Below are positions 322 through 7,100 of a DNA stretch of 7,100 nucleotides, piece after piece (position 1 is the first letter of the stretch; each line of letters starts with the position of its first letter). The stretch comes from Oscillospiraceae bacterium (GTDB taxonomy: Bacteria; Bacillota; Clostridia; Oscillospirales; Ruminococcaceae): positions 1 to 7,100 of the forward strand of contig JAFQND010000273.1 in assembly GCA_017396055.1 (NCBI GenBank). Direction: 5' to 3'. The translations under genes were made by a program, and so were the position numbers. The notes beneath the pieces were generated by a model. That model searched no databases. It was not told where the DNA came from and was given only the letters and a program-made list of their open reading frames with translations.

Positions 322-374
322 AGAACGAAACATCGGGTCAAGGTTTTTTCAGTTGGCAGTTGATCTTCTGCAGC

Positions 375-445
375 AAAAGTTTTTGGAGATTCTTAAGCCC
401 CTTTTTCCAAAAAGGGGCTTAAGCGAGTCCAGAGCGGAGCTTTGG
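375..445 (+). repeat. Palindromic element, copy A
   Basis: In order: AAAAGTTTTTG (375-385), linker GAGATT, left arm CTTAAGCCCCTTTTT (392-406), CC, and right arm AAAAAGGGGCTTAAG (409-423), a perfect 15-bp stem. A linker containing GAGTC follows, then CCAGAGC-GGA-GCTTTGG (429-445), a 7-bp stem with one G-U pair. The words shared with the other copies are the AAAAGTTTTTG head, the TTTTTCCAAAAA apex and the GGA loop. There is no T-tract after either stem, so I do not call it a terminator. Confidence 0.8.
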
Positions 446-451
446 TCGGGT

Positions 452-537
452 TTGGATCGAAGGTCCAACAGCAGATAAACAAATCCCCGCCGCATCGCGC
501 GGCGGGGAGATCTTGTCCCATCCTCCCGGATGGGACA
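452..537. repeat. Core hairpins H3-H5 between copies A and B
   Basis: Three independent stems fill the space between the inverted copies. H3 is TTGGATC-GAA-GGTCCAA (452-468, one G-U). H4 has arms CCCCGCCGC (485-493) and GCGGCGGGG (499-507) around ATCGC. H5 has arms TGTCCCATCC (514-523) and GGATGGGACA (528-537) around TCCC. H4 and H5 are GC-rich and only six bases apart. Neither has a following T-run, so they are unlikely to be simple terminators. They might be cargo of the composite element, or part of a structured transcript; no promoter for such a transcript is evident. Confidence 0.65.
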
Positions 538-552
538 TTTTGCATGATATTG

Positions 553-625
553 TTGGAGCTCCGCTCCAAACCACGGCAAAGAGAACTTTTTGGAAAAAGT
601 TCTCTTTGATCTCTCAAAAACTTTT
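553..625 (-). repeat. Palindromic element, copy B (inverted relative to A)
   Basis: Read on the minus strand: AAAAGTTTTTG (625-615), linker AGAGAT, left arm CAAAGAGAACTTTTT (608-594), CC, right arm AAAAAGTTCTCTTTG (591-577), linker, then TTGGAGC-GGA-GCTCCAA (569-553). Both stems are perfect. Compared with copy A, the 15-bp stem differs at seven paired positions and all seven stay complementary. The TTTTTCCAAAAA apex and the GGA loop are unchanged. It sits 10 bases past the far end of the pfkA terminator. Confidence 0.8.
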
Positions 626-1796: not shown

Positions 1797-3485
1797 ACTT
1801 TCTTTCAGCGCAGCCTCGCCCTTTCTTGCTTCTTCCTCGGTTTTTTCGATAACGAAGAAGTAGAACTTGATCTTGGGCTCGGTGCCGGAGGGACGGATAA
1901 CTGCCTTATAACCGTTCTCGAGAGTGTACATCAGAACTGCAGACTTGGGCAGAGTGATGGCGGTCTTTTCGCCGGTAACCATGTCAACAGTGACCTGAGC
2001 CTGATAGTCGCTGAACTCGACGACCTTGACTCCGTCGATCTCTTTTGCGGGATCGGCGCTGAGCTTCTCCATGATAGCCTTCATGTTGGCCATGCCCTGT
2101 TCGCCTTCAAAGGCAAAGGAAGCCTGAGTGCACAGATGATAGCCATAGGTATCGTACAGTTCATTGAGAACGTCGACAACGCTGCGGCCTTCGGCGGAAT
2201 AGAAAGCAGCCATCTCACAGATCAGCATGGAAGCAACGACAGCGTCCTTATCGCGGACATAGGTGCCGGCCAGATAGCCATAGCTCTCTTCGTAGCCGAA
2301 GATGAAGCGCTCTTCCTCGCCCTTTTCCTCCAGCAGAGCGATCTGCTCGCCGATGTACTTGAAGCCGGTGAGAACGTTCTTGAGGATGATGCCGTATTTC
2401 TCACAGATACGGGTGGTCAGCTCGTTGGTAACGATGGTCTTGACAGCAACGGGGTCCTTGGGCATGGTGCCTTTGGCGATGCGCTGGGAAGCGATATAGT
2501 TGAGCAGCAGAACGCCTACTTCGTTGCCGGTCAGCAGTTTGTACTCGCCGTTGTACTTGACAGCGATACCGACGCGGTCAGCGTCAGGGTCGGTGGCCAG
2601 CAGCAGGTCGCAGCCGGTCTTTTCGCACAGCTCGATACCCAGTTTCAGTGCGTCGCGGATCTCGGGGTTGGGATAAGAGCAGGTGGGGAAATTGCCGTCG
2701 GGATATTCCTGTTCGGGAACGACGACAACGTCGGTGATGCCGATTCTCTTGAGGATCTCGCGGACGGGCTTGTTGCCTGCGCCGTTGAGGGGGGTATAGA
2801 CGATCTTGAAACCGCTGGAAGCAGCAACGTCAGCGTTGATGGAACGGGAGAGGACGTTGGCATAATAAGCCTCATAGACTTCCTCGCCGATATAGTTTAC
2901 CAGACCCTCTTCAACAGCCTTGTCGAAGTCCATCAGCTTGACGGAATCGAACTCGTTGAGCTTGCCGATGGCAGCAATGACGCCGTTGGCGGTCTCACTG
3001 GTGATCTGGCAGCCGTCAGAGCCATAGGCCTTATAACCGTTGTACTTGGCAGGGTTATGGGAAGCGGTGATCATGACGCCCATGGTGCACTTCAGTTCAC
3101 GGGTGGCAAAGGACAGGCAGGGAACGGGCATCAGTTCGGGGTAGATCCATACCTTGATGCCGTTGGCGGCCAGAACGCGGGCAGTCTCTTTTGCGAAGAC
3201 GTCGGACTTGATACGGCTGTCATAGCTGATGGCAACAGAGCCGGTGCCGTAAGTCTCGTTGATGTAATCAGCGATACCCTGGGTAGCTTTGCGGACGGTG
3301 TAGATGTTCATGCGGTTGGTGCCTGCACCGATAACACCGCGCAGACCGGCAGTGCCGAACTCCAGCTCACGGTAGAAGCGATCACGGATCTCTTCGGGCT
3401 TGTCGGCAACAGCCTGCAGCTCGGGCAGCAGATCGGGATCCTCGGTGGCCTTCAGGAGCCATTCGTTGTACTTGGTATTTACCAT
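1773..3485 (-). CDS. pgcA: Phosphoglucomutase/phosphomannomutase family phospho-sugar mutase (PgcA-like)
   Basis: Cytoplasmic enzyme of the alpha-D-phosphohexomutase superfamily. The likely reaction is interconversion of glucose-1-phosphate and glucose-6-phosphate, feeding glycogen or cell-wall sugar synthesis in one direction and glycolysis in the other. The 570-residue length matches the PgcA subfamily (B. subtilis PgcA is about 580) rather than shorter GlmM/ManB proteins. All four superfamily motifs are present: TASHNP (140-145, phosphoserine Ser142), DPDADR (299-304, metal loop), GYEES (397-401, sugar specificity loop) and RPSGTEPK (531-538, phosphate binding). An early FGTAGLRG segment (43-50) is also typical. 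An AAAGGAT ribosome binding site lies 11 bases before the ATG. It has a near-consensus promoter and no strong terminator before pfkA 109 bases downstream. Whether it prefers glucose or mannose phosphate cannot be decided from motifs. Confidence 0.93.
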   Translation of the reverse strand: MVNTKYNEWLLKATEDPDLLPELQAVADKPEEIRDRFYRELEFGTAGLRGVIGAGTNRMNIYTVRKATQGIADYINETYGTGSVAISYDSRIKSDVFAKETARVLAANGIKVWIYPELMPVPCLSFATRELKCTMGVMITASHNPAKYNGYKAYGSDGCQITSETANGVIAAIGKLNEFDSVKLMDFDKAVEEGLVNYIGEEVYEAYYANVLSRSINADVAASSGFKIVYTPLNGAGNKPVREILKRIGITDVVVVPEQEYPDGNFPTCSYPNPEIRDALKLGIELCEKTGCDLLLATDPDADRVGIAVKYNGEYKLLTGNEVGVLLLNYIASQRIAKGTMPKDPVAVKTIVTNELTTRICEKYGIILKNVLTGFKYIGEQIALLEEKGEEERFIFGYEESYGYLAGTYVRDKDAVVASMLICEMAAFYSAEGRSVVDVLNELYDTYGYHLCTQASFAFEGEQGMANMKAIMEKLSADPAKEIDGVKVVEFSDYQAQVTVDMVTGEKTAITLPKSAVLMYTLENGYKAVIRPSGTEPKIKFYFFVIEKTEEEARKGEAALKESFTKLLTI

Positions 3486-3544
3486 AAACAGTCACGATCC
3501 TTTCTGAATTGAAAACAGATTTCTCCATTTTCATTATTATAATA

Positions 3545-3639: not shown

Positions 3640-3714
3640 AAAAGTTTTTGCGGGATCTCAAAGGGCACTTTTTTCAAAAAGCGCCCTTTGACAGAGTCTG
3701 AGACGGAGTCTCAG
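3640..3714 (+). repeat. Palindromic element, copy C (solitary)
   Basis: AAAAGTTTTTG (3640-3650), linker CGGGATCT, left arm CAAAGGGCACTTTTT (3659-3673), TC, and right arm AAAAAGCGCCCTTTG (3676-3690). A linker with GAGTC follows, then CTGAGAC-GGA-GTCTCAG (3698-3714). The long stem has 14 pairs and one A-C mismatch, which becomes a G-U pair in RNA from the minus strand. The layout, head word and GGA loop match copies A and B. It lies between the cysS terminator and the mutase promoter, with no inverted partner in the window. Confidence 0.8.
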
Positions 3715-3725
3715 CAATGAATACA

Positions 3726-3758
3726 CAAAAAGACCGCACCGGTAACGGCACGGTCTTT
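3726..3758 (-). terminator. Intrinsic terminator of cysS
   Basis: Minus strand: AAAGACCGTGCCG (3758-3746) pairs with CGGTGCGGTCTTT (3741-3729) around TTAC, a 13-bp stem with two wobble pairs, continuing into a TTTTT run (3731-3727). It starts 12 bases after the cysS stop codon. The complementary A-run before the stem means it may also work on the plus strand, but no plus-strand gene ends here. Confidence 0.92.
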
Positions 3759-3770
3759 GACGGGACTCAC

Positions 3771-5183
3771 TTATTTTGCCAGTTCCCACAGAGTTCCTTC
3801 GCGGGTGTCCTTGATGACAACGCCCTTTTCCAGCAGCTCGGCGCGGATAGCGTCGGCCTGAGCGAAGTCCTTGGCCTTCTTGGCGGCCTTACGGGCAGCA
3901 ATGCGCTCTTCAACCCATGCAGCCAGCTCGCCGTCCACCTCGGCAGTTTCCTCTTCGGCCAGAAGATTCAGCGAGAGGACCTGATCGAAATCGCCGATCA
4001 GCCAGCGCTTGGTGGGGCCGTTCAGGTCGGCCTTCAGCACATCATACAGGACAGTGAAGCCCATGGAGGTATTCATGTCGCTGCCGACAGCCTCGATGAA
4101 AGCTTCTTTGTAAGGAGCAGCGGCGGCCATATCCACTTCACCCTCTTTGGGCAGGGCACGGATACGGGCCAGCAGCTTCTGATAGGTCTGGGCGACGTTG
4201 TCCAGAACGGGATAGCTGAACTCCAGAGGCTTGCGGTAATGGGACTGCAGGCAGAACATTCTGTATGCCAGAGGATCATAGCCTTTCTGCTCCAGCAGGG
4301 AAACAGTCAGGAAATCGCCCTTGGATTTGCTCATCTTGCCGGTGGAATCGTTCAGATGCAGTACATGGAACCAGTAACCGCACCATTCATGGCCGAGGAA
4401 TGCCTCGGACTGAGCGATCTCGTTGGTGTGGTGGGGGAAGATGTTGTCCACGCCGCCGCAGTGGATGTCCAGATATTCGCCCAGATGCTTCATGCTGATG
4501 CAGGAGCACTCGATATGCCAGCCGGGATAACCGATGCCCCAGGGGCTCTCCCACTTCAGTTCCTGGTCGTCGAACTTGGACTTGGTGAACCAGAGAACAA
4601 AGTCGGTCTTGCTGCGCTTATTGGTATCTTCCTCAACACCTTCGCGGACGCCGACAGCCAGTTCTTCCTCGTTCTGGTTGCTCAGGACATAATATTCCTT
4701 CAGCTTGGAGGTGTCGAAATAGATGTTGCCGCCGGCTTCATAGGCATAACCCTTTTCCAGCAGAGCGGAGATGACCTTGATGAACTCATCGATGCAGTTG
4801 GTGGCGGGCTCGACCACGTCGGGACGCTTGATCTGCAGCTTCTCACAGTCGGAGAAGAAAGCCTTGGTGTAGAAATCGGCGATCTCGAGAACGGTCTTCT
4901 TTTCGCGCTTGGCGCCCTTGAGCATCTTGTCCTCGCCGGTATCGGCGTCGCTGGACAGATGGCCTACGTCGGTGATGTTCATGACGCGGGTGACGTCATA
5001 GCCTAAGTAGCGCAGGAATTTTTCCAGTGCGTCCTCCATGATATAGCTGCGCAGGTTGCCGATGTGGGCAAAGTGATAGACGGTGGGACCGCAGGTGTAC
5101 ATGGACACCTTGCCGTCGACACGGGGAACAAAAGTCTCGACCTTTTTGGTGAGCGTATTATAAAGGTTCAGTCTGTTTTCCAT
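3771..5183 (-). CDS. cysS: Cysteinyl-tRNA synthetase (CysRS)
   Basis: Cytoplasmic class I aminoacyl-tRNA synthetase that charges tRNA-Cys with cysteine using ATP. The 470 residues compare with 461 in E. coli. The Rossmann signature appears as HIGN (40-43) and the second as KMSKS (283-287). The catalytic zinc ligands are all present: Cys31, Cys226 in GWHIECS, and His251 and Glu255 in PHHTNE. The Cys-His-Glu spacing equals that of E. coli (209-234-238). There are about 14 extra residues between the first and second zinc ligands. The C-terminus (about 400-470) is the Ala/Lys-rich helical region typical of the family. AAAGGAG lies 9 bases before the ATG. The gene has its own promoter and terminator and appears monocistronic. 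The leader is too short for a T-box riboswitch. Confidence 0.97.
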   Translation of the reverse strand: MENRLNLYNTLTKKVETFVPRVDGKVSMYTCGPTVYHFAHIGNLRSYIMEDALEKFLRYLGYDVTRVMNITDVGHLSSDADTGEDKMLKGAKREKKTVLEIADFYTKAFFSDCEKLQIKRPDVVEPATNCIDEFIKVISALLEKGYAYEAGGNIYFDTSKLKEYYVLSNQNEEELAVGVREGVEEDTNKRSKTDFVLWFTKSKFDDQELKWESPWGIGYPGWHIECSCISMKHLGEYLDIHCGGVDNIFPHHTNEIAQSEAFLGHEWCGYWFHVLHLNDSTGKMSKSKGDFLTVSLLEQKGYDPLAYRMFCLQSHYRKPLEFSYPVLDNVAQTYQKLLARIRALPKEGEVDMAAAAPYKEAFIEAVGSDMNTSMGFTVLYDVLKADLNGPTKRWLIGDFDQVLSLNLLAEEETAEVDGELAAWVEERIAARKAAKKAKDFAQADAIRAELLEKGVVIKDTREGTLWELAK

Positions 5184-5227
5184 ACAGCATTTCTCCTTTT
5201 AAAGATTGGCAAAGCCTTAACAGATAG

Positions 5228-5256
5228 AGTATACCACAAATCTTCCCCGGTGGGAA
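5228..5256 (-). promoter_or_regulatory. Sigma-A promoter of cysS (extended -10)
   Basis: Minus strand: TATACT (plus 5233-5228) preceded by TGG as an extended -10, with TTCCCA (5256-5251) 17 bases upstream as a 4-of-6 -35. The leader before the ATG is about 38 bases. The dyad at 5241-5258 covers the whole -35. Confidence 0.75.
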
Positions 5257-5258
5257 GA
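5241..5258. promoter_or_regulatory. Operator-like dyad overlapping the cysS -35
   Basis: TCTTCCC (5241-5247) and GGGAAGA (5252-5258) are perfect 7-base inverted repeats around CGGT. The dyad overlaps the cysS -35 and half of its spacer, and is about 20 bases upstream of the divergent peptidase -35. A repressor bound here could block cysS and touch the other promoter. No known operator is recognised. Confidence 0.4.
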
Positions 5259-5278
5259 GGAGAACGGGAATTTTTCCA

Positions 5279-5307
5279 TTGCCTTTTTCACGGGAAGAAT
5301 TTATAAT
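5279..5307 (+). promoter_or_regulatory. Sigma-A promoter of the S9 peptidase gene
   Basis: TTGCCT (5279-5284), a 17-base spacer, then a consensus TATAAT (5302-5307). Transcription should begin near 5314, giving a leader of about 36 bases that contains GAAAGGAG 9 bases before the ATG. The direct repeat ACGGGAA (5264-5270 and 5290-5296) flanks the -35. The promoter faces away from that of cysS. Confidence 0.8.
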
Positions 5308-5349
5308 GAAACTGTCAGGAGTTTCTTTTCCCGAAAGGAGTCTGCAGCC

Positions 5350-7100
5350 ATGAAAAAAGTCAGCTATACCGATTTCTGTGAGATAAAGTCCCTGCCGGGC
5401 ATCACTGCCTCCCCCGACGGGAAAAAGGCAGCTTTCGTTGTCCGTCAGCCCGATCTGGAAAAGGACCGTTATCTGAGCCATATCTGGGTCTGGGAGGATG
5501 GAAAACTCTGCCGCCTGACCGGCATGGGCAAAGAATCCGGCTTTATCTGGCTGGACGATGAACAGATCCTCTTTCCCGGCGACCGTCAGGAAAAATACAA
5601 GGGCAAGCCGCCCCACACCGTCTATAACCGTATCTCCATCCGGGGCGGTGAGGCGGAGGAAGCCTTCGTCCTGCCCTTTGCGGCATCGGGCCCTGTATCG
5701 CTGGGAGACGGAAAATTCCTTGTCCGGGGCGTCTATGATCCCATGCGTTTCACATCCGAAGACGGTTCCCTGCGGGAAAAGACCGCCGACGAACTGGAGG
5801 CCGACAAACGGGTGGAGATCTTCGATGAGCTTCCCTTCTGGCAGAACGGTCAGGGCGTCATCAACAAAAAGCGCAGCCGTGTCTATCTTTGCGATACCCT
5901 TTCGGGAACACAGACTGCCCTGACACCCGAACTGATGGACGTTTCCTCCTTTGAATATTCCAAAGAAAAGGGCGAACTGATCATCATCGGCGAGGAATAC
6001 ACCGACATGGCCATCCGCAAACAATCGGTCCGGCTGTATACCCTGGACGGCAGCTATACCGAGCTGCTGCCCCGGAAGGATTATGGGGTATCGGATGTAT
6101 GGTTCTTTGGCGAAGACTTCCTGATGATGGCCTCCGACGGCAAAAAATACGGCACCAGCCAGAACGACAGCTTCTTCCTGCTGAAGCGGGACGGCAGCCT
6201 CGAAAAACTCTGTGACCCCGATATGACCATCGGCGGCGGTGCCGGCTCGGACTGTGCCGCGGGCGGCAGATCGATCGTGATGGAGGACGAGAGCCTCTAC
6301 TGCCTCGAGACGCGGGATTATATCTCCTTTATTGTAAAAATGGATCCCCGTACCGGCGAACGGGTGCAGCTGACCCCTGCCGACTGCGGCAGAGTGGACG
6401 GTTTCGACAAAAAGGGCGACGTGATCTATTACACCGCCATGAAGGGCAGCGGCCTGCAGGAGCTTTACCGGCTGGAAAACGGCACCGAAACAAAGCTCAC
6501 CTCCTTCAACGACGAGTACCTGGAGACCCATGATATCATCCCGCCGGAATACATCCCCTTCACCGACAAAGAGGGCGTCCGCATCGACGGCTGGATCATC
6601 CGTCCCGCCGATTATGACCCCGAAAAGACCTATCCCGCCATCCTCGATGTCCACGGCGGCCCCAAGGGTGTCTACGGCACCGTTTATTTCCACGAGATGC
6701 AGCTCTGGGCCAATATGGGCTATTTCGTCTTCTTCTGCAATCCCCACGGCGGTTCCGGCAGGGGCGACGAGTTCTCGGACATCTTCGGCGAGCAGTACGG
6801 CGTCCGGGATTACAACGACCTGATGGAATTCACCGACCATGTCCTCGCCCTTTATCCCCAGATCGACAAGGAGAAGGTCGGCATGACCGGCGGCTCCTAC
6901 GGCGGATTCATGGCCAACTGGATCGTCGGCCACACCGATCGCTTTGCGGCGGTGGCTTCCCAGCGGTCGATCTCCAACTACATCAGCAAATGCCTGACCA
7001 CCGATATCGGTTATTACCACAACCTCTCGGCTCTGGAAGCCTCCCCCTGGGAGAATTTCGACCAGCTCTGGGAGCACTCGCCTCTGAAACACGCCTGCAA
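5350..7100 (+). CDS. S9-family (prolyl oligopeptidase-like) serine peptidase, C-terminus cut off
   Basis: Likely cytoplasmic peptidase or acylaminoacyl-type peptidase that trims small peptides; no signal peptide is visible. The ATG at 5350 has GAAAGGAG 9 bases upstream, and 583 codons are open to the window edge. The first ~390 residues have the repetitive strand-rich pattern of the S9 beta-propeller, including LPGITASPDGKKAAFVV near 15-31. The alpha/beta-hydrolase domain follows: VHGGP (434-438, oxyanion region), GYFVFFCNPHGGSGRG, and GGSYGG (514-519) with the nucleophile Ser516. The catalytic Asp and His would be in the missing last 70-110 residues, judging by the 650-690 residue length of relatives such as B. 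subtilis YuxL. It starts divergently from cysS. Substrate specificity cannot be told. A long antisense reading frame covers it but has no start signals. Confidence 0.92.
   Translation, partial: MKKVSYTDFCEIKSLPGITASPDGKKAAFVVRQPDLEKDRYLSHIWVWEDGKLCRLTGMGKESGFIWLDDEQILFPGDRQEKYKGKPPHTVYNRISIRGGEAEEAFVLPFAASGPVSLGDGKFLVRGVYDPMRFTSEDGSLREKTADELEADKRVEIFDELPFWQNGQGVINKKRSRVYLCDTLSGTQTALTPELMDVSSFEYSKEKGELIIIGEEYTDMAIRKQSVRLYTLDGSYTELLPRKDYGVSDVWFFGEDFLMMASDGKKYGTSQNDSFFLLKRDGSLEKLCDPDMTIGGGAGSDCAAGGRSIVMEDESLYCLETRDYISFIVKMDPRTGERVQLTPADCGRVDGFDKKGDVIYYTAMKGSGLQELYRLENGTETKLTSFNDEYLETHDIIPPEYIPFTDKEGVRIDGWIIRPADYDPEKTYPAILDVHGGPKGVYGTVYFHEMQLWANMGYFVFFCNPHGGSGRGDEFSDIFGEQYGVRDYNDLMEFTDHVLALYPQIDKEKVGMTGGSYGGFMANWIVGHTDRFAAVASQRSISNYISKCLTTDIGYYHNLSALEASPWENFDQLWEHSPLKHAC

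Follow-up and report, generated by a model that had tools for sequence, protein, structure and literature searches.

Results

Genes and hairpins at the pfkA locus

The window, by which we mean the whole 7,100-nucleotide stretch analyzed, corresponds to contig C186 of the assembly G000 (1.90 Mb in 351 contigs, 67.7% complete). It contains pfkA on the minus strand (1675-677) with a predicted terminator at 671-640, and just beyond this terminator lies the region 375-625, which forms the subject of this work (Table 1). The original prediction described this region as seven hairpins enclosed by 11-base inverted ends, and both are present: the ends occupy 375-385 and 615-625, and the fold is far more stable than that of shuffled sequences, with -134 kcal/mol (z -11.4) on the plus strand and -133.3 kcal/mol (z -12.6) on the minus strand against shuffled means near -74 kcal/mol, and with 0 of 200 shuffles as stable on either strand. 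The symmetry lies, as had been proposed, in the layout and not in the stem sequence, the stems of the two halves being different. We read the region as two modules, A and B, arranged tail-to-tail with their end boxes outermost.

The 7-bp stems noticed earlier are real, but the GGA-loop stem at 429-445 is not the partner of the right stem (TTGGAGC-TCC-GCTCCAA). The true counterpart on the left is TTGGATC-GAA-GGTCCAA, which contains one T.G pair and retains the family frame GTTTGG..CCAACA. The GGA-loop hairpin is an insertion in A-type copies that is also found in the copies on contigs C308 and C210 of the same genome; the covariance model R1 (see below) took it for the HP2 of module A. At the core of the region, the two perfect 10-bp stems HP3a and HP3b are both terminator-like, one on each strand. 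The stretch scanned has four such sites, where shuffles give 0.8; the remaining two belong to pfkA's own terminator. The same scan (GC stem followed by a T-tract) flagged neither HP1 nor HP2 in the window. Hence, the earlier statement that no terminator function accounts for the region holds only in part, given the predicted terminators of the HP3 pair.

Table 1. Features of the hairpin region and of the third module in the window
Feature	Coordinates	Strand	Basis
Left end box (TIR) AAAAGTTTTTGGAGATT, module A	375..391	+	conserved in 11 copies aligned (A3)
HP1 of module A, perfect 15-bp stem, 2-nt loop	392..423	.	fold
Extra 7-bp GGA-loop hairpin of A-type copies	429..445	.	fold; C308 and C210 sequences
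HP2 of module A, 7-bp stem, GAA loop, one T.G	452..468	.	GTTTGG..CCAACA frame
HP3a, predicted intrinsic terminator for leftward transcripts	484..508	-	terminator scan
HP3b, predicted intrinsic terminator for rightward transcripts	514..537	+	terminator scan
HP2 of module B	553..569	.	sequence; model R1
HP1 of module B, perfect 15-bp stem	577..608	.	repeat finding and fold
Right end box (TIR), module B	609..625	-	inverted ends; model R1
Module A, model R1 match	375..447	+	76.1 bits
Module B, model R1 match	551..625	-	73.3 bits
Third module, single, between pgm and a terminator-like hairpin behind cysS	3640..3716	+	73.5 bits

Further features of the window are recorded here in their own right. 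The HP2 of the third module faces the terminator-like hairpin behind cysS. Positions 331-344 hold a remnant (ACATCGGGTCAAGG) of an apparent second palindromic repeat family (GGGTCAAGGG..CCCTTGC), which also occurs near modules on contigs C10, C24, C87 and C150 of G000. Very long antisense open frames run over the genes of the window (5158-7092 on the minus strand; 590-1672, 2136-3512 and 3717-5006 on the plus strand) and are probably an effect of codon usage.

A 74-base module dispersed through Clostridia

The repeating unit is a module of 74 bases made up of an end box (AAAAGTTTTTG), a 15-bp HP1 and a 7-bp HP2; its consensus reads AAAAGTTTTTGNGGATT for the end box, followed by HP1 with a 2-nt loop, HP2 with a 3-nt loop and a terminal CAACA. 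A BLAST search of the window's own genome with positions 340-660 gave 24 matches, including the query itself, on 12 contigs. In an alignment of 11 gap-free copies from G000, G023 and G028, 11 of 22 base pairs have changed on both sides and 97.5% of the cells are paired; when the partners are shifted by one base, the pairing falls to at most 61.6%. For HP1 alone, 8 of 15 pairs have changed on both sides with 98.2% of the cells paired (11-relative alignment). The covariance model R1 recovers 21 matches of at least 57 bits in G000, namely the three of the window and 18 elsewhere, which supports the dispersed element suspected by the original prediction. The tail-to-tail layout recurs on C210, as a model match, and on C308, by reading of the sequence, where the right half has lost its HP1. 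The flanking sequence differs from copy to copy, and the copies occupy unrelated sites.

Among G000 and 99 relatives, R1 matches at E <= 0.001 were found in 16 of the 100 genomes, under stricter filters and with 49 candidates scored per genome. Strong matches occur in other genera (G023, G028, G050 and G055), and the 100%-complete G028 has nine model matches at eight places; in the 13 genomes of the same genus the best match reaches 38.3 bits, with 49 candidates scored in each. One of these same-genus genomes, G011, carries a different dispersed element (L169-L179), a young repeat whose length we judge by eye at about 250 bp; its 60-base hairpin core is identical in the 11 places retrieved, and several of these have ends resembling AAAAAAGACTTTTTCGAC.

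An exact-pattern scan of named genomes returned at least 112 stretches, 80 of them among the matches listed, and by their titles the records among the matches listed belong to Clostridia (Oscillospiraceae, Clostridiales, Acutalibacter sp. 1XD8-33 and one Christensenellaceae). Viral contigs gave no exact match to the pattern, and carriage by phages was set aside on this count. The listed stretches derive from 38 genomes, and all 38, being chosen for holding the motif, have module matches at E <= 1e-6, ranging from 2 to 126 per genome with a median of 44 and a sum of at least 1965; at most 128 candidates were scored per genome, making the high counts lower bounds, and the matches are not independent by descent. 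Tandem arrays also occur, with periods of 300 bp (L270), 184 bp (L232) and 190 bp (L241). Two more multi-copy stretches, at 812-982 and 6806-7070 of L280 in SIG693, have matches elsewhere among the 38 genomes. The literature searched on the subject held no published description of the repeat; palindromic candidate RNAs of human microbiomes are reported in PMC8040213 and may overlap with the present family.

Arrangement of modules and position relative to genes

The best 110 of 258 matches (80 named loci) all lie outside the predicted coding sequences, as called by a home-made gene finder at a coding fraction of 0.79. Of 106 modules with a gene end on the side of HP2, 64 have a stop codon nearest and 42 a start codon, and 34 of the 64 stops lie within 20 nt. 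The end-box side shows 45 stops and 40 starts in 85 cases, with 6 and 0, respectively, within 20 nt. Only 4 of the 82 modules flanked by genes on both sides lie between divergent genes.

Single modules and both orientations of pairs occur. When neighbors within 400 nt are considered among the best 150 matches of the named loci, 20 are head-to-head, one is tail-to-tail and five point in the same direction; weaker partners, counted by eye, add a few more tail-to-tail pairs, and the set comprising G000 and its relatives has six head-to-head and three tail-to-tail neighbors. The exact stretch 375-625, whose presence or absence the original prediction had proposed to compare, does not represent the usual unit of the family: pairs elsewhere are mostly head-to-head and the window copy has the opposite arrangement.

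In G023, each of the six head-to-head elements examined lies between inverted repeats (23-47 aligned nt) that are private to its locus, with flank alignment scores of 26-40 within the own locus versus 8-24 across loci, and five of the six beat all 200 shuffles. These outer repeats are seen at L194-L198 of G023 and at L204 of G028. We rejected them as a feature of the family, for among 25 other pairs only L204 is clear (score 60), L259, with a score of 24, barely exceeding the 95% level of the scores across loci. At L196 (G023) and L204 (G028), the stop codon of the host gene has been taken into the private repeats. Two readings may account for the G023 repeats—either the elements entered existing hairpins, or template switching palindromised the flanks.

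The pfkA locus in related genomes

The pfkA loci of the 13 same-genus genomes, some of which end soon after pfkA in the stretches fetched, contain no module at E <= 0.01, the best score being 15.8 bits. The comparison of this locus came out on the side of a dispersed element: the same-genus relatives have no strong copy, either here or at other loci, and conservation of the whole region with no further genomic copies was not observed.

In G005, G010, G009 and G001, pfkA (about 80% identical in the former two and about 56% in the latter two) is followed within about 150 nt by a tail-to-tail gene for a 95-aa protein, here called Y. Y and pfkA are apart in G000, each with a copy of the element behind it: Y is on contig C308 beside a 129-bp stretch 96% identical to window positions 342-470. 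Near-identical element halves are thus seen behind Y (12177-12619 of C308) and behind pfkA (342-676 of the window). One reading is that recombination between copies parted Y from pfkA in G000; a misassembly is also possible. The element as the cause of the rearrangement finds no clear support, since genomes lacking strong modules have lost the linkage as well. Y lies beside pfkA in four of the 13 same-genus genomes and 1.2 kb away in G008; G002, G004 and G007 do not have it in the 1.5 kb retrieved, and the shorter stretches beside pfkA of G013 (1.1 kb) and G011 (0.6 kb) do not contain it either; the linkage is not judgeable in G003, G006 and G012.

The end box echoes HP1, and stems are replaced between close relatives

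The T-run of the end box matches the A-run in the 3' arm of the module's own HP1, as in the end box/HP1 combinations TTCTTG/CAAGAA, GCTTTTC/GAAAAGC and TTTTTTG/CAAAAAA. Of the 51 modules that fall outside the search pattern, 43 show this agreement against a mean of 16.0 and a maximum of 28 in 5000 permutations, and we accordingly rejected the search pattern as its source. The 71 pattern-matching modules are uninformative in this regard (70 agree, with a permuted mean of 70.0), and a mixed count of 107 of 113 includes modules with both runs fixed by the pattern; likewise, the ten G000 rows in the echo count are all 5/5 and uninformative. In G023 alone, six of eight agree, and 22 of 5000 permutations do as well. 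A match to the own HP1, with runs of 5-7, is seen in seven of the eight listed G023 modules, the exception being L198:566-662 with a run of 3. Pairing of the end box with the opposite end box is disfavored: five intact G023 pairs have end boxes of different types, and because the partners differ in this way it is the own HP1 that is echoed. T-rich relatives of the module in G066 (L187-L193; GGCCGTTCTTCTTTTTGCTTC...) also seem to show an end-box echo of the hairpin.

Comparison of orthologous sites points to rapid turnover of the stems. SIG693 and RGIG4150 align at 93% over 5.1 kb and at 94% over 1.5 kb and were compared at three orthologous module sites, at one of which the module differs by a single base. 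At the other two, the HP1 stem is a different one, again paired; in one of these HP2 is also different and paired in both genomes, and in the other an insertion disrupts the HP2 of RGIG4150. Where they align, SIG693 and RGIG2197 are 81-85% identical; at one site common to both, two neighboring HP1 pairs read C-G in one genome but G-C in its counterpart. Elsewhere, at a gene end, the HP2 of a SIG693 module adjoins a stop codon, and RGIG2197 has at that place a plain terminator-like hairpin, no module and a different next gene. RGIG5585 gave no module match in the stretch fetched around the orthologous gene. No exact empty site free of other change was found, and a candidate at L231/L244 was dismissed, the length difference there not being a module.

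Structured RNA, transposase or replication

Covariation in the stems, the frequent placement of HP2 within 20 nt of a stop codon and the terminator-like HP3a and HP3b would be expected of a structured RNA or 3'-UTR element under selection on the transcript. The pairing statistics speak to this directly. Over the best 110 distinct rows, HP1 has 1604 Watson-Crick cells (98.5%), 12 G.U, 5 A.C and 7 others; HP2 is less perfect, with 557 Watson-Crick, 8 G.U, 5 A.C and 23 others in the same rows. The search pattern fixed parts of HP1, and the four free pairs provide the fair test: across 106 rows, they comprise 406 Watson-Crick pairs, 5 G.U, 1 A.C, 7 other mismatches and 5 gapped cells, with GC, AU, CG and UA all in use and several pair types per column. 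Structured RNAs usually have many more G.U pairs. Single transitions lead to G.U and A.C equally often, and the excess of the former over both hairpins (20 versus 10) leans slightly toward selection on RNA, although the numbers are small. Against an RNA also stand the replacement of stems between close relatives, the variable flanks of the copies and the results for known families: Rfam has no match in the window at E <= 1, and the 26 matches in ten related loci are all below gathering scores and nearly all to miRNA hairpin models, by which a known Rfam family was dismissed. Taken together, selection on a transcript appears highly improbable as the explanation of the family.

The DNA-level alternatives invoke a transposase. 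The original prediction considered, besides a structured RNA or DNA site, a BIME- or MITE-like mobile unit moved by a REP- or IS200/IS605-type enzyme. A dispersed, non-coding, BIME-like element is supported; the Y1 mover is not. A REP/BIME family mobilized by a Y1 (RAYT/TnpA-REP) transposase acting on single-stranded hairpins would agree with dispersed, extragenic palindromes in inverted pairs and arrays, and with the somewhat higher median module count in genomes with Y1 (54 versus 31.5 without; Mann-Whitney p 0.074, 38 genomes). However, G000 (68% complete), G028 (100% complete) and G029 yielded no Y1 gene, G023 has only partial or broken matches, and of the 38 motif-selected genomes 14 have a match and 24 have none; the latter include genomes with at least 101 (G100), 102, 97 and 96 module matches. 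The stretches fetched around 46 (30 + 16) Y1 loci, those among the matches listed, contain no module at E <= 0.01, the best being a partial HP1-like match (E 0.018). By eye, there is also no GT[AG]G at the foot of either hairpin, the A3 consensus having GATT before HP1 and CGGAGT before HP2. Mobilization by Y1 is thus very unlikely. A second candidate, a MITE that is non-autonomous and served by a conventional IS (DDE or other), would have the paired modules as its two ends and would suit the dominance of head-to-head pairs and especially the version in SIG645 (1.4 Mb). There, the head-to-head element is discrete and non-coding, about 360 bp long with imperfect inverted ends, and present at different sites in at least 40 copies (matches of 232-373 bp, 82-97% identical apart from the query itself, with only 40 of 186 candidates scored); eight inspected copies have common ends and different flanks. 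By eye, no target-site duplication is visible at these eight, the ends being only approximately defined, which would suit the Y1 route and may count against a MITE. The outer ends differ between genomes, single modules and both pair orientations exist, and no autonomous partner was noticed in the loci inspected. We consider a MITE unlikely.

A probable DNA-level, fast-turning-over repeat

The near-absence of G.U pairs, the end-box echo and the replacement of stems jointly lead us to a DNA-level, fast-turning-over, BIME-like mosaic repeat. The modules are dispersed, those examined are intergenic, the end box matches HP1, and stems have been replaced at orthologous sites. We therefore interpret 375-625 as a tail-to-tail pair of a dispersed 74-base extragenic repeat, whose stems are likely kept paired and turned over by copying at the level of DNA; we give this reading a probability of roughly 0.6.

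Mechanistically, hairpins formed in single-stranded DNA at replication may let the polymerase switch templates, and such a switch would rewrite one arm from its partner and the end box from HP1. By itself, this process duplicates an arm without bringing in new sequence; for a whole stem to be replaced, conversion between copies or re-insertion is needed. Copies would also convert or replace one another, and new ones would enter the spacers behind genes. Neither a transposition nor a template switch was directly observed. The pair behind pfkA would in addition act as a passive two-way terminator through 484-508 and 514-537; this role of HP3 is local and does not explain the family. A bolder version, in which the repeat is a transposase-free parasite that spreads by template switching at replication, rewrites its end box from HP1 and palindromises host flanks, strikes us as quite unlikely.

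If the reading of a DNA-level repeat is true, the repeat is present in a large set of Clostridia that have been little studied, with counts reaching 126 or more per genome. It would offer a natural system for asking whether template switching can maintain palindromic repeats, and even disperse them, in the absence of a transposase. The same reading would warn that covariation in such hairpins need not signify a functional RNA.

Comparison with known systems

According to the parts of PMC6006769 considered, REP/BIME systems with RAYTs are characterized by many dispersed extragenic copies, often in inverted pairs, a 5' GT[AG]G tetranucleotide at the foot of the hairpin, a tnpA-REP gene near REPs of the same family, and binding of gyrase, IHF or Pol I. 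The module family shares the many dispersed extragenic copies, often in inverted pairs; on sequence grounds, membership among RAYT-served families is not supported, the GT[AG]G foot and a linked tnpA-REP gene being the two features on which it fails. With the BIMEs, REPs and REPINs of, for example, E. coli, it has in common short extragenic palindromes in many copies, inverted pairs and sometimes arrays, but the module is of other sequence, combines two hairpins with an end box echoing HP1, and is without the tetranucleotide and without Y1/RAYT linkage in the tested loci. Hence, it works like a BIME, which falls short of proof that it is one.

The SIG645 version resembles MITEs with terminal inverted repeats in being discrete, non-coding and multi-copy, and departs from them in that no target-site duplication was seen at its eight inspected copies and in the existence of single modules. 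The innermost hairpins of the window copy, HP3a and HP3b, look like an intrinsic terminator on each strand, whereas it is HP1 and HP2, unflagged in the window, that make the family. Finally, the hairpins attributed to template switching, as far as the portions of PMC8794818 and PMC8604942 considered describe them, share with the modules near-perfect arms and no wobble intermediates—there template switching is a mutation process that acts on hairpins and inverted repeats, and here we propose a dispersed family that would use it.
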